Shown here in pieces: positions 6,637 to 43,596 of a stretch of 43,596 nt of DNA (position 1 is its first letter; each line of letters begins with the position of its first letter). This stretch comes from Thermaurantimonas aggregans (GTDB lineage Bacteria > Bacteroidota > Bacteroidia > Flavobacteriales > Schleiferiaceae): positions 1 to 43,596 of the forward strand of contig NZ_BHZE01000024.1 in NCBI RefSeq assembly GCF_003851885.1, given 5' to 3'. Position numbers and translations under genes: made by a program. A model generated the notes under the pieces. The model ran no database searches. It saw nothing but the letters and a program-made list of their open reading frames with translations, and was not told the DNA's origin.

Positions 6637-6838
6637 AGCGGCCTGAGGCCGCTGCTGCGTGAGGGATAGAAGCGGATATGAGCCGCAGTGGGTGGGCAGC
6701 AGCACAATGGGAGCGGATGGCTGGCCCGAAGGGCAGACAACGCACCCATGTCGTGCTGCGCCCACGCGCAAGGCGAATATGAGCGGATAGCCCGACCCGA
6801 GCAGCTGCCCGAGAGGGCAAGCTGCGAGGGGCACGCCC
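6637..6838 (-). repeat. copy A of a dispersed GC-rich structured element
   Basis: Read on the minus strand, it begins GGGCGTGCCCC. A stem follows (6801-6806 and 6807-6810 pairing with 6820-6825 and 6815-6818, one bulged base), then GGGTCGGGCTATCCGCTC and a core ending CTCACGC. The core has a long-range stem: 6753-6765 pairs with 6692-6705 with one bulge. It also has a UUCG-capped hairpin at 6721-6736. A 7-bp hairpin (6637-6643 with 6647-6653) closes it. The 135-base core matches copy D with about eight substitutions and no length change by eye. It starts 29 bases after the ugd stop, on the same strand. Open frames across it change between copies, so I do not call a protein. Confidence 0.8.
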
Positions 6839-10257: not shown

Positions 10258-10396
10258 GGGCGTGCCCCAGGCTAAGCGCAGATTGCGCTGTCGCCTGGGT
10301 CGGCGTGCTACGGGGTACGCTTCGCTTCCGTGCTTTGGCAGCTCTGCGAGCTTGCCTTCGCACCGCGCTTACGCGCGCCCTTCGCATGCCTCACGC
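10258..10396 (+). repeat. copy B of the dispersed structured element (divergent subtype)
   Basis: It begins GGGCGTGCCCC and ends CTCACGC like the other copies. The first stem is CCCAGGC (10266-10272) with GCCTGGG (10293-10299), enclosing AGCGCA (10275-10280) with TGCGCT (10284-10289). GGGTCGG follows. The core is shorter and different from copies A, C and D, with its own hairpins, for example GGCAGCTC with GAGCTTGCC. It lies 41 bases after the stop of the outer-membrane protein gene, same strand, with a T-rich run before it. Confidence 0.65.
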
Positions 10397-20586: not shown

Positions 20587-20877
20587 ATGACAAAAGCAGA
20601 CCTTGTTAACAAAATTTCTGAGAAAACAGGAATGGAGAAAAATGATGTGCAAGCTGTGATTGAGCTTTTTATGAAAGAGATAAAAGAGGCTATGGAGCAA
20701 GGCAATGAAGTTTTCCTTCGCGGCTTTGGTAGCTTCATCATCAAGAGAAGAGCCCAAAAGACTGGCAGAAATATTTCTCAAAACACCACCATTACCATTC
20801 CTGCACACAATATTCCGGCTTTTAAGCCTGCCAAAGTATTTGTAGAAGCTATCAAGGAAAAAGTACCCGCTAAGTAA
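20587..20877 (+). CDS. HU-family DNA-binding protein
   Basis: This 96-residue histone-like protein has the standard HU/IHF fold. It opens MTKADLVNKISEKTGM; the DNA-binding arm segment FGSFIIKRRAQKTGRN leads to IPAHNIPAFKPAK at the end. It bends and compacts DNA. It faces mutY across a 111-base divergent gap and is followed 12 bases later by the TPR gene, so it probably leads the HU-TPR-COX24-like-RNase G run. Confidence 0.94.
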   Translation: MTKADLVNKISEKTGMEKNDVQAVIELFMKEIKEAMEQGNEVFLRGFGSFIIKRRAQKTGRNISQNTTITIPAHNIPAFKPAKVFVEAIKEKVPAK

Positions 20878-37574: not shown

Positions 37575-37778
37575 GGGCGTGCCCCTCGCCGACTGCCCTA
37601 TAGGGCAGCTGCTCGGGTCGGGCTAGTGGCTCTTATTCGCCTTGCAGCTGTGGGCGGCACATCGCGCTGCGTTGTCTGCCCTTCGGGTCAGCCAGCCTCG
37701 CGCTGTGTGCCGCAAAACCTCACCTGCTGCGGCTCATATCCGCCACTATCCCTCACGCGTTGCGCGGCAAGGCCGCGC
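37575..37778 (+). repeat. copy C of the dispersed structured element
   Basis: It begins GGGCGTGCCCC. Its first stem is CTGCCC (37593-37598) with GGGCAG (37603-37608), plus CCC with GGG outside. GGGTCGGGCTA follows. The core keeps the UUCG hairpin (37676-37691) and a long-range stem, here GCGGCACA (37654-37661) with TGTGCCGC (37706-37713), where copy A has GCAGCAC with GTGCTGC. CTCACGC (37752-37758) is followed by a 7-bp hairpin, GCGCGGC (37762-37768) with GCCGCGC (37772-37778). It lies 53 bases after murA on the same strand. Confidence 0.78.
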
Positions 37779-41192: not shown

Positions 41193-42191
41193 ATGACAAA
41201 TGCACAACCAGATGTTAGCGTCGTAGTGCCTCTATACAACGAAGAGGAATCTCTTCGCGAACTCTTTGAATGGATCAAGCGCGTGTGCGATGAACACAAG
41301 CTATCGTTTGAAGTCATAATGGTCGATGATGGAAGCACCGATGGCTCATGGCGGGTAATTGAAGAACTTGCTTCTCAGCATCCCGAAGTACGCGGCATAT
41401 CCTTTCGTCGCAATCAAGGCAAATCAGCCGGTCTGAACGCGGGCTTCAGAGCCGCTAAAGGCCGAGTAGTCATCACCATGGACGCCGATCTGCAGGACAG
41501 CCCCGACGAAATTCCTGCCCTCTATCAAATGATTTCTGGCGAAGGCTACGACCTCGTATCCGGCTGGAAGAAGAAGCGCTACGACCCACTCAGCAAGACC
41601 ATTCCTACCAAACTCTTCAACTGGGCTACTCGCCGAATGTCGGGCATTCACCTCAATGACTTCAATTGCGGCCTTAAGGCCTATAAGCTCGAGGTAGTGA
41701 AGCACATCGAAGTGTACGGCGAGCTGCATCGCTACATTCCTGTGCTGGCCAAGAGTGCAGGCTTCTCGCGCATCGGCGAAAAGGTCGTGGTACACCGTCC
41801 TCGCAAGTACGGGCACACCAAGTTTGGCTGGGAGCGGTTCGTTAACGGCTTTCTCGACCTCGTTACCCTCGCCTTTGTAAGCCGATTCAGCAAGCGCCCC
41901 ATGCACTTTTTTGGACTGCTAGGTACCCTCATGTTTGTCTTCGGATTTTCTGCCGCAGCATACATCGGCATCTCAAAACTCATTGCCCTCAAAAAGGGCA
42001 TCCCAGCCATCCTCGTCGCCGACAATCCCTGGTTTTACATCTCCCTCACTTCCATGATTCTCGGCACCCAGCTCTTCCTCGCCGGATTTTTGGCCGAACT
42101 CATCATCCGAAACAATCCCCGCAAATTCGACCCTGCCATCGTCGAACGCACAGCCAATCTAAACCGCGCTGACCTCTATGAGTCAAGGTAA
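41193..42191 (+). CDS. family 2 glycosyltransferase with two C-terminal membrane helices
   Basis: This 332-residue enzyme has the DPM1-like GT-A fold. The opening VVPLYNEEESL is followed by VDDGSTDGS and ITMDADLQDSPDEI, with the DAD carboxylates for nucleotide-sugar binding. Two membrane helices lie at about residues 235-260 and 280-305. It may transfer a sugar to a polyprenyl-phosphate or membrane glycan, by analogy only. It overlaps the next glycosyltransferase by 14 bases. Confidence 0.9.
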   Translation: MTNAQPDVSVVVPLYNEEESLRELFEWIKRVCDEHKLSFEVIMVDDGSTDGSWRVIEELASQHPEVRGISFRRNQGKSAGLNAGFRAAKGRVVITMDADLQDSPDEIPALYQMISGEGYDLVSGWKKKRYDPLSKTIPTKLFNWATRRMSGIHLNDFNCGLKAYKLEVVKHIEVYGELHRYIPVLAKSAGFSRIGEKVVVHRPRKYGHTKFGWERFVNGFLDLVTLAFVSRFSKRPMHFFGLLGTLMFVFGFSAAAYIGISKLIALKKGIPAILVADNPWFYISLTSMILGTQLFLAGFLAELIIRNNPRKFDPAIVERTANLNRADLYESR

Positions 42192-43176
42192 TCCCCTCTA
42201 TTTCAGCCTCATTACCCCCACCTTTGGCCGGCCTGATGAGGTGGTCGAATTTTTAGAGAGCCTGCTCGCGCAGCAATATCCCCATTTCGAAGTCATCGTG
42301 AGCGACGGCACACCCGGCGACACACTCCGGCCCCTCCTCCGTCGATTCGAAAACAACCCCACTTATCCCCTTACCATCCTCTTCACCGAATACATCGGCG
42401 TCAGTCCCGCCCGCAATGCAGCCGCAGCCGTAGCTAAAGGCGATTACCTCATCTTTCTCGACTCCGACTGCATCATCCCACCCGACTACCTCACCAAAGT
42501 AGCCGACTACCTCGTAAAAAATCCCGACATCGCCCTCTTTGGCGGGCCTGACCTTGCAGCATCCGGCTTTACACCCCTGCAGAAAGCCATCAACTTTTCC
42601 ATGACCTCCTTCCTCACCACCGGCGGCATCCGCGGAGGCAAGCGCACCATTGGCACCTACCTTCCCCGCGGCTTCAATATGGGCGTAAAACGCTCCGTAT
42701 TCCAAGCCGTCAAGGGCTATTCCGACTTCGTCTGTGCCGAAGACATTGAGCTCAGCATCCGAATCCTCAAGGCCGGCTACCGCTCCGCCTATATCCCTGA
42801 GGCCGGGGTATATCACAAGCGTCGCACTACGCTCAAAAAATTCTTCCGCCAGGTCTATCGCTTTGGAGCAGCACGTCTCCTGCTCAACGAGCGCCACCCC
42901 GGCAATCTCAAGCTTACCCATCTCTTTCCCCTTCTTTTCAGCCTCGGGCTTATACTCGCCCTTCTGCTTTTGCCCCTTACCGAATGGCCCTTTGTGCTCT
43001 ACGCCATCTACTTTAGCCTAATCATGATCTTTTCAACCCTCACCAACGAAAGCTCCAAAATAGGCCTGCTCACCGTAGTTACTACCCTCGTGATGATGGC
43101 CGGCTATGGCTACGGCATGGCCCGCAATGGCTGGGAGATGTACATCAAAGGGAATAAAAAAGGCATCAAACTGTAA
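42178..43176 (+). CDS. family 2 glycosyltransferase
   Basis: This 332-residue enzyme has a family 2 catalytic domain: LITPTFGRPDEV, then VIVSDGTPGD, then DYLIFLDSDCII, and CAEDIELSIR near residue 185. Hydrophobic segments follow near residues 245-285 and 300-320. It overlaps the upstream glycosyltransferase by 14 bases, so the two are coexpressed, probably for the same surface glycan. The DSD and ED-type motifs suggest a chain-extending enzyme, but the sugar is unknown. Repeat copy D begins 68 bases after the stop. Confidence 0.88.
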   Translation: MSQGNPLYFSLITPTFGRPDEVVEFLESLLAQQYPHFEVIVSDGTPGDTLRPLLRRFENNPTYPLTILFTEYIGVSPARNAAAAVAKGDYLIFLDSDCIIPPDYLTKVADYLVKNPDIALFGGPDLAASGFTPLQKAINFSMTSFLTTGGIRGGKRTIGTYLPRGFNMGVKRSVFQAVKGYSDFVCAEDIELSIRILKAGYRSAYIPEAGVYHKRRTTLKKFFRQVYRFGAARLLLNERHPGNLKLTHLFPLLFSLGLILALLLLPLTEWPFVLYAIYFSLIMIFSTLTNESSKIGLLTVVTTLVMMAGYGYGMARNGWEMYIKGNKKGIKL

Positions 43177-43244
43177 GCCGTAACCCACCGTTCAATACCC
43201 TAGTATTGGTTGTTTCTTTTATTGGGTCTTGGTTTTCTTTTTTT

Positions 43245-43505
43245 GGGCGTGCCCCAGGCGAAGGAGCCGACGGGTGCTTTCGCCTACGGGTATTCCCAGG
43301 CAAAGGGCAAACTATCTCCTTCGCCTGGGTCGGGCTATCCGCTCATATTCGCCTTGCGCGTGGGCGCATCACAGCCTGGGTGCGTTGTCTGCCCTTCGGT
43401 CCAGCCATCCGCTCCCAGTGTGCTGCAGCCCACCCGCTGCGGCTCATATCCGCTTCTATCCCTCACGCGAGAAGAAGCTGTCCTAAAAGAGGGCAGCTTT
43501 TTTTT
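43245..43505 (+). repeat. copy D of the dispersed structured element, with terminator
   Basis: It begins GGGCGTGCCCC. Its first stem is a perfect 14-bp match: CCCAGGCGAAGGAG (43253-43266) with 43316-43329. The loop is long, 49 bases. GGGTCGGGCTATCCGCTC and the core follow, matching copy A with about eight substitutions and no gap. The UUCG hairpin is at 43389-43404 and the core ends CTCACGC (43462-43468). A strong terminator closes it (43475-43505). It lies 68 bases after the glycosyltransferase stop on the same strand, after a T-rich run. Confidence 0.82.
43475..43505 (+). terminator. Rho-independent terminator at the end of copy D
   Basis: AAGCTGTCCT (43475-43484) pairs with AGGGCAGCTT (43490-43499) with one G-T pair, around the loop AAAAG, followed by a run of T to 43505. 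It would end a transcript running through copy D. Confidence 0.8.
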
Positions 43506-43596
43506 ATCAGTTTTTAAATGGTATTTAATGTTACAAAAAATGAATTAGACTTAAAGCAGGTTTTTGGTAGTGATATTTCAAAAAATTGATTTTTGA
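43506..43596. other. right end of the window, no gene seen
   Basis: These 91 AT-rich bases have only very short open frames. Any gene would lie beyond the window edge. Confidence 0.4.

Follow-up and report, generated by a model that had tools for sequence, protein, structure and literature searches.

The repeat at positions 43,245 to 43,468 of the window, by which we mean the whole 43,596-nucleotide stretch of Thermaurantimonas aggregans DNA analysed here, is a variant of the structured repeat Flavo-1 (Rfam RF01705), larger and with a three-way junction. The best reading of this element, which we hold with moderate confidence, is that it is a non-autonomous mobile repeat whose movement depends on its structure, and it looks more like a spreading element than a gene. 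The unit that can be read in the window copies is GGGCGTG...CACGC. These copies, together with the parts of copy D, are as follows.

43245..43468, + strand: copy D, a full element of subfamily I (long P4), from reading of the sequence, the edges of 35 copies in this genome and the fold, that of the reverse strand included.
6657..6838, - strand: copy A, a full element of subfamily I, from reading, alignment to copy D and folds.
37575..37758, + strand: copy C, a full but diverged element of subfamily I, from an end-to-end match to the family model R1 at 30.2 bits.
10258..10396, + strand: copy B, a full element of a short subtype, whose P3 (GGCGTGC:GCATGCC) is the same as in L065, L084, L087 and L088.
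43247..43251, + strand: 5' strand of P1 in copy D, GCGTG, pairing with CACGC at 43464-43468, from the fold and from end pairs that co-vary in relatives.
43464..43468, + strand: 3' strand of P1 in copy D, CACGC, which is the right end of the element, from reading and the fold.
43253..43329, + strand: P2 side hairpin of copy D, with a 14-bp base CCCAGGCGAAGGAG / CTCCTTCGCCTGGG, from the fold.
43332..43337, + strand: 5' strand of P3 in copy D, GGG-C-TA, pairing with TA-T-CCC at 43457-43462 with one mismatch, from folds and covariation within the genome.
43220..43244, + strand: T-rich tract adjoining copy D on the left, with T at 94% at -9, -3, -2 and -1 in 35 copies of this genome.
43471..43596, unstranded: insertion-sequence end abutting copy D, an assembly break outside the element, from sequence comparison.

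Copies A, C and D, which a sequence-only reading of the window had recognised, are all real, with the landmarks in the order and at the positions it gave, and copy B is a fourth full copy. The estimate of about eight substitutions between the non-coding copies A and D fits their identity of 94% over 142 bases of both, and copy C is, as had been described, more distant (79% over 143-145 bases). The extent proposed for copy D, 43,245-43,505, keeps its start but not its end. The element stops at 43,468 and is followed by GA at 43,469-43,470, and positions 43,471-43,505 are excluded because 43,471-43,596 is an insertion-sequence end that recurs at many contig ends. This insertion-sequence end (GAAGAAGCTGTCCTAAAAGAGGGCAGC) is also present in contigs C4, C8, C10, C13, C14, C17, C18, C21, C23, C28, C29, C30, C38, C39, C42, C43 and C44 of the same assembly. 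It is located at contig ends wherever the extent of the contig is known, and it breaks the draft assembly.

There are 43 occurrences of GGGCGTGCCCC in the 2.67 Mb genome versus none of the reversed pattern, and 34 of CTATCCCTCACGC with at most one mismatch versus one for the reversed control. For ten of these 34 ends, no exact GGGCGTGCCCC is found in the neighbouring 450 bases; eight of the ten have a recognisable variant start (GGCGTG or GGCGTA) and two a strongly diverged one. Thus, the exact starts and the ends with diverged starts together indicate about 53 sites in the genome, and one-sided truncation is not common because all ten ends still have a start. The further copies that the sequence-only reading had suggested looking for are therefore present in number, and its description of a dispersed, strongly structured family is borne out by these counts and by the paired changes in the fold described below. 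Both ends can be read in 35 copies, which are 111 to 377 bases long and fall into several subtypes. At two loci (L064 and L068; G000:C2:5134 and C3:76896), P2 is made up of a unit of about 40 bases repeated in tandem (GGCAAGGGGCCGAAAGGCACCTTCGCCGTAGGGCTTGCCCA, with variants), which suggests that repeat expansion lengthens the side hairpin. A second hairpin (GCAGCGGCC..GGCCGCTTTT) is common to the right side of many copies in this genome (for example L072, L074, L012 and L031), and another repeat (CCCTCTTTGTTGCC..GGCAACAG) is found farther to the right of some. L072 and L074 have more than 100 bases downstream in common.

The ends of the element are sharp, and similarity to the right is lost within a few bases. 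Beyond the fixed motifs, the four bases that follow on the right have mean pairwise identities of 0.64, 0.35, 0.28 and 0.31 for the 35 T. aggregans copies and 0.47, 0.35, 0.34 and 0.25 for copies from across the phylum. The first of these bases is a purine in 35 of 35 T. aggregans copies. To the left, identity among the phylum copies is near background past about nine bases, and the T. aggregans copies carry a T-tract of about 20 bases. Long terminal inverted repeats and a target duplication would be expected of an insertion sequence or MITE of a known kind; only five end bases (GCGTG and CACGC) are complementary here, and the earlier statement that there is no terminal inverted repeat thus holds only in part.

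The consensus fold comprises P1 as the closing stem, P2 as a side hairpin, P3, a stem interrupted by one fixed mismatch, and then a symmetric internal loop and the arm P4. Copy D is predicted to form P1 (GCGTG:CACGC), P2, P3 (GGG-C-TA:TA-T-CCC) and a long arm interrupted by internal loops, and its reverse strand gives the same fold. Copy C forms P1, P2 and the base of P3. All stems of copy A form on the reverse strand, and the best fold of its GGGCGT strand has P1 and P2 without P3.

Changes in P3 within the T. aggregans genome are compensatory. The seven bases before TCACGC were compared with the seven after P2, and 33 of 35 copies could be parsed in this way (L031 and L080 could not, and L012 is misparsed among the 33). 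There are ten versions of the 5' strand of P3, and pairing is kept by paired changes: the forms include GGGCTA(C/G):(G/C)TATCCC, GGGCTGC:GCATCCC, GGGCTC:GATCCC, GGTCCCT:AGG(C/T)ACC, GGTCCAT:ATGCACC, GGCGTGC:GCATGCC and GGTGTC(C/T):(G/A)GCCACC. Among the 33 copies, position 3 is G-C in 20, T-A in 8, C-G in 4 and A-C in 1, and position 6 is A-T in 19, C-G in 8, G-C in 5 and G-T in 1. At position 4, 30 of the 33 have a mismatch or G.T, the two GGTGTC copies have the mismatch at position 5 rather than 4, and position 7 is unpaired in ten subfamily I copies, D and A included.

The alignment A1 contains 63 compact copies, with 7 of 70 left out (L120, L136, L141, L143, L180, L192 and L218). Letters that were fixed by the collecting pattern (the second loop, ATCCCT and ACGC) or by the parse (GCGT and GGGCT) are invariant by design and prove nothing. 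RNAalifold recovers P3 and P4 from this alignment unaided, and the last P3 pair is A-U in 34 copies, U-A in 23, G-C in 4 and C-G in 2, with none broken. The covariation score is 0.254, versus 0.094 for shuffled and at most 0.073 for slid alignments, and the derived structure pairs 93.7% of cells versus 83.5% after shuffling. Two of five pair measures are not above the shuffles in A1 (7 versus 6.9 for pairs with both sides changed, and 17 versus 17.8 for further pair types).

Across the phylum, 96 of 132 pattern matches could be parsed, and their fifth P1 pair is G-C in 48, T-A in 42 and other in 6. The N:N' cell is paired in 80 of the 96. Among the 16 remaining cells, 11 arise where a second GGGCTN was taken and the first one pairs, L120 and L214 are truly without the P3 strand, and L162, L218 and L227 on reading also have A opposite T. 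Other states of P1 are found in copies outside the collecting pattern, namely GCGAG:CTCGC in 5 of 10 Flavobacterium loci and GCGTC:GACGC in a microvirus record. A pair inside the internal loop also co-varies (C-G 29, T-A 4, other 3). The structure is not evident from energy alone, because the mean fold z-scores of 83 compact phylum copies are weak on both strands (-0.84 and -0.78).

In a search of Rfam with relaxed settings, the compact relative L147 has one significant match, which is Flavo-1 on the opposite strand at 30.4 bits (gathering limit 42). Flavo-1 RNA is listed in Table 1 of Weinberg et al. 2010 (PMC2864571). Its consensus of P3, a 3x3 loop, two pairs, a 3x3 loop and P4 is the same as the core of our element, whose structure had been derived before this comparison, except for the two central pairs, which were noticed later when copies were compared. 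The architecture of 3 bp, a mismatch, 2 bp, a 3x3 loop, 2 bp, a 3x3 loop and a terminal arm is found in copy D on the Rfam strand and in the P3 table of the T. aggregans copies. Thus, the two have in common a P3 with an internal mismatch, two symmetric three-base mismatches separated by two paired bases, and P4, as well as the AGCGGA loop letters, an occurrence in Bacteroidota and many dispersed copies. In contrast, the Rfam model has unpaired flanks and is without P1 and P2, both of which are present in the element. Six canonical Flavobacterium copies of Flavo-1 are flanked by CTAGCCC and GGGAAATAGC, or close variants of these, and no P1 or P2 is visible in them. P4 is far longer in the window copies.

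Three-way-junction relatives above the Flavo-1 gathering score do exist (L207 at 58.0, L238 at 52.2 and L224 at 49.7 bits). They are among the 7 of 13 loci given that match Flavo-1, and the other four are below the limit (L244 at 36.0, L197 at 35.5, L209 at 31.2 and L304 at 31.1 bits); at E 0.01 there is no match in L288, L289, L293, L298, L301 or L204. Flavo-1 has up to 124 matches in one genome among the 23 searched, with 130 candidates scored per genome, and none in 14 control genomes. At the gathering limit, Rfam matches neither the window nor any of 11 loci with T. aggregans copies. Up to E 5, Rfam finds nothing for copy D and only two unrelated weak matches, neither of them to Flavo-1, for copy C, and at E 0.001 Flavo-1 has no match in the T. 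aggregans genome, its congener G001 or G014. Because the core is shared and only relatives exceed the limit, the window elements are related to Flavo-1 in their architecture and by way of intermediates, and are not members by score. The sequence-only reading knew no named family and held that an Rfam match would speak against its proposal; the core does have the architecture of a named family, on the opposite strand, but a match above the gathering score is confined to the three high-scoring relatives and the window copies remain without one. The Rfam strand of Flavo-1 is the complement of the GGGCGT strand, and we think that it is the strand that folds. On this strand, the conserved internal loop is rich in purines, with GNAGCGGA on each side, and could plausibly form tandem G.A pairs. 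As an indicator of strand, G.T versus A.C mismatches number 22 to 7 in the phylum and 6 to 7 in T. aggregans.

The distribution of the element is wide but patchy. Its right-end pattern is found in at least 118 stretches in named genomes, and all but four titles (L166, L180, L212 and L225) name Bacteroidota, in agreement with the breadth that had been supposed for the family. Related sequences may also occur as spurious Arg- and Pro-rich ORFs in many Bacteroidota genomes. Three of the four exceptions (L225, L180 and L166, from metagenome bins) are element-like and L212 looks like a chance match, as do at least L232, L237 and L239 among 12 viral contigs. The proposal that a start GGGCGTGCCCC and an end CTCACGC mark the family proved too narrow, given that other Bacteroidota have GGGCGTT..AACGC, GGGCGAG..CTCGC and GGGCGTC..GACGC, ends that are again complementary to each other.

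The covariance model R1, built from the 63 copies of A1, matches 30 of the 198 genomes sampled from the phylum when filters are strict and 22 candidates are scored per genome. This number is a lower bound, and absence from the other 168 is not proven, because the T. aggregans genome was itself missed at that setting. When searched directly on the window, R1 matches copy C from end to end and, for copies A and D, only the right part at the better score. Over 399 kb of the T. aggregans genome there are 12 matches to E 1, all within element copies (11 copies), and by eye 10 of 23 exact-start copies are found and 13 missed. BLAST with copy D finds 3 of 40 genomes, its own included.

One possibility is that the element is a structured RNA, either a small RNA or an untranslated-region element, that is transcribed, folded and bound by protein, and whose copies are kept by selection. 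The strong covariation, which includes a mismatch and an internal loop that are both fixed, is in its favour. So are the copies at the same place behind one gene in five Flavobacterium species (5 of 10 loci read; L288, L289, L293, L298 and L301), in which P2 remains paired though its sequence changes. Similarly, 25 of 31 T. aggregans copies are located behind a same-sense gene by a simple ORF rule, which could point to a 3'-end role, and 31 of 34 fold better on the Rfam strand; with RNA parameters, the two strands of the compact phylum copies are not told apart (39 of 83). However, the strand that is in sense with the upstream gene in T. aggregans is the non-Rfam strand, and no rule relates orientation to genes across the phylum (19, 19, 18 and 11 of 67). 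The copy number, as high as the 124 matches noted above, also counts against an RNA of this kind, as does the transcript map of F. psychrophilum, where Flavo-1 matches are sense or antisense to transcribed regions or, in many cases, outside them, and which in the parts consulted holds no rule for Flavo-1 (PMC9723704). We therefore consider a structured RNA unlikely, although it is the strongest of the rival explanations.

One of the Flavobacterium loci also contains a long, near-perfect intergenic palindrome (L298:2184-2281) that scores 49 bits to the plant family MIR6024 in Rfam and is probably another bacterial repeat family. There is no recurring neighbour gene: among 116 ORFs scanned (of 184 collected), which are 60-420 aa long and lie no more than 700 bases away, with open-ended frames excluded, 152 Pfam families are represented and none occurs in more than 2. 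No large internal reading frame was seen among 35 parse-failing pattern matches (of 132). A terminator-like hairpin is located directly before 9 of 35 T. aggregans copies versus 36 of 700 controls; this adjacency is moderate, and it is absent across the phylum (8 of 96 versus 115 of 1920 controls), and terminator targeting was rejected.

Copy D as a query finds no match in plasmid or phage collections. With L147 as the query, 84 of 72,556 plasmid records match, each of them from a Bacteroidales genus, and three phage records match as well. One of the phage records is a circular Microviridae sequence, marked as unverified by its depositor, whose capsid and replication proteins match PHROGs and whose copy is intergenic; the flanks of a second resemble a plasmid class of about 98 kb. 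Among three plasmid records that were read, pBF9343 and a relative carry the element directly after a recombinase gene and ahead of one that is ArdC-like, and the third, of the 98 kb class, carries it near a JAB-domain gene. The plasmid of L240 (NZ_CP072214.1), in which the element likewise separates a recombinase gene from an ArdC-like one, carries an IS1595-like transposase and tet(X2) a few kb away. Plasmid copies are fixed in place: 29 of 29 matching records align across the element, and for the other plasmid class 31 of 32 records cover at least 80% of the region, with all of it covered in the 20 matches listed.

The intergenic microvirus copy and the plasmid neighbourhoods might suggest a signal that works in single-stranded DNA, for example for priming or single-strand initiation, and that is present on plasmids, an ssDNA phage and chromosomes. 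Folding with DNA parameters, under which the Rfam strand is better in 58 of 83 compact copies, is consistent with this explanation. A preference for one replication strand at first appeared among the three-way-junction copies, 35 of 45 of which point one way (31 of 41 without four presumed rRNA-linked copies), but it was rejected because Flavo-1 points the opposite way (24 of 66 among the matches listed). The corresponding counts are 16 of 23 for T. aggregans copies, 13 of 22 for G163 and 44 of 74 for loci across the phylum. This inconsistent bias on chromosomes, together with the 168 of 198 sampled genomes without a match (in a search that missed the T. aggregans genome too), makes such a signal improbable. 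In G276:C1, four copies with the same right end (near 20602, 495248, 2356263 and 5290894) are each located about 6.0 kb from a canonical Flavo-1 match, a spacing that suggests that they flank rRNA operons.

The T. aggregans genome (G000, 99.93% complete) has no match to Y1_Tnp (PF01797) and none to RVT_1 (PF00078), and both a Y1/RAYT transposase and a reverse transcriptase were rejected as the mover on this ground. PF01797 is found in 18 of 23 genomes searched and PF00078 in 10 of 23. In the single-contig genome G140 (G140:C1), there are 19 RVT_1 matches, many with identical scores, which represents a burst of reverse-transcriptase genes. The element might instead be a REP-like repeat that depends on a Y1 (RAYT) transposase, or one that a host reverse transcriptase copies through RNA. 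This would fit the folded ends, the T-rich left side (an A-run after the element in reverse orientation, as for retrocopied RNA), the intergenic dispersal and the Y1 genes of the copy-rich Flavobacterium genomes tested, but it is the least probable explanation given the absence of both domains here, copies in G014, G163, G026 and G276 without RVT_1, Y1 genes in genomes without an element match (for example G002, G003, G004 and G008) and the rarity of one-sided truncation. Such a mover may have been lost from the T. aggregans genome or be foreign to it.

No clean pair of filled and empty sites was found, and hence no target duplication could be read, when the flanks of five Flavobacterium copies and five G001 loci were compared. 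In G001, the gene that is upstream of copy D adjoins the region that in T. aggregans is downstream of the copy at C1:210975, and an element is located between these two regions in the opposite orientation. This arrangement reflects either a rearrangement or a separate insertion. A comparison of L098/L100 (G001:C108) with positions 41,715-43,166 of the window and with L390 reveals that the gene order of the congeners differs at element copies, and thus the copies may act as points of rearrangement.

ERIC, BOX and similar intergenic repeats are dispersed, imperfectly palindromic and non-coding, with extra sequence at certain loops. Our element resembles these general descriptions in every one of these respects, but its loops are not palindromic and its stems have paired changes, and therefore it is the fold of a single strand that is conserved. 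REP elements with RAYT transposases are 20-40 bp palindromes, and CGTC-tagged REPs, which are without a known dedicated transposase, are reported to reach Bacteroidetes (PMC3733652, in the parts consulted). The likeness to REPs consists in short, folded, intergenic repeats of high copy number, and extends to the lack of a dedicated transposase in the CGTC class. Unlike REPs, the element is 64 to 377 bases long and has three arms and conserved unpaired loops, in a genome without a Y1 gene.

The absence of a recurring neighbour gene, the absence of Y1 and reverse transcriptase genes in T. aggregans and the similarity that stops at the right end cause us to favour a mobile repeat. Perhaps one strand folds such that P1 closes a P2/P3 junction, followed by the symmetric purine-rich internal loop and P4. 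This folded single strand, which could be DNA or RNA, might then be recognised by a putative enzyme and copied to new places, where it would land with precise ends, preferably just 3' of a T-rich stretch. In T. aggregans, this landing stretch would sometimes be the run of T residues in an intrinsic terminator that follows a gene. We infer that the element itself is what moves and that it is recognised in the form of its folded strand. The Flavobacterium copies at the same place with a re-paired P2, and the fixed plasmid copies, would also be expected of a functional inherited structure; selection may retain mobile elements as well.

The literature consulted, in part, contains no work tied to the element beyond papers that name Flavo-1, and the portions seen of the sources that include PMC2864571, PMC9723704, PMC9029176 and PMC5771137 do not describe the full fold, the ends or the presence in plasmids and a microvirus. 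Thus, as far as these sources go, the core family is already filed and these three features are the new part. Flavo-1 is filed in Rfam as a small RNA without function. Around its core there is a larger folded unit with two more stems and exact ends, which is found in chromosomes, plasmids and a microvirus record. A tentative and rather doubtful extension of the mobile-repeat reading is that these sequences form a phylum-wide mobile class, conserved in the fold of one strand and moved by neither a Y1 transposase nor a reverse transcriptase, that would occupy chromosomes, plasmids and an ssDNA phage and of which Flavo-1 would be the stripped core. The many copies of the larger unit behave as dispersed repeats, and this reading is useful for annotation.
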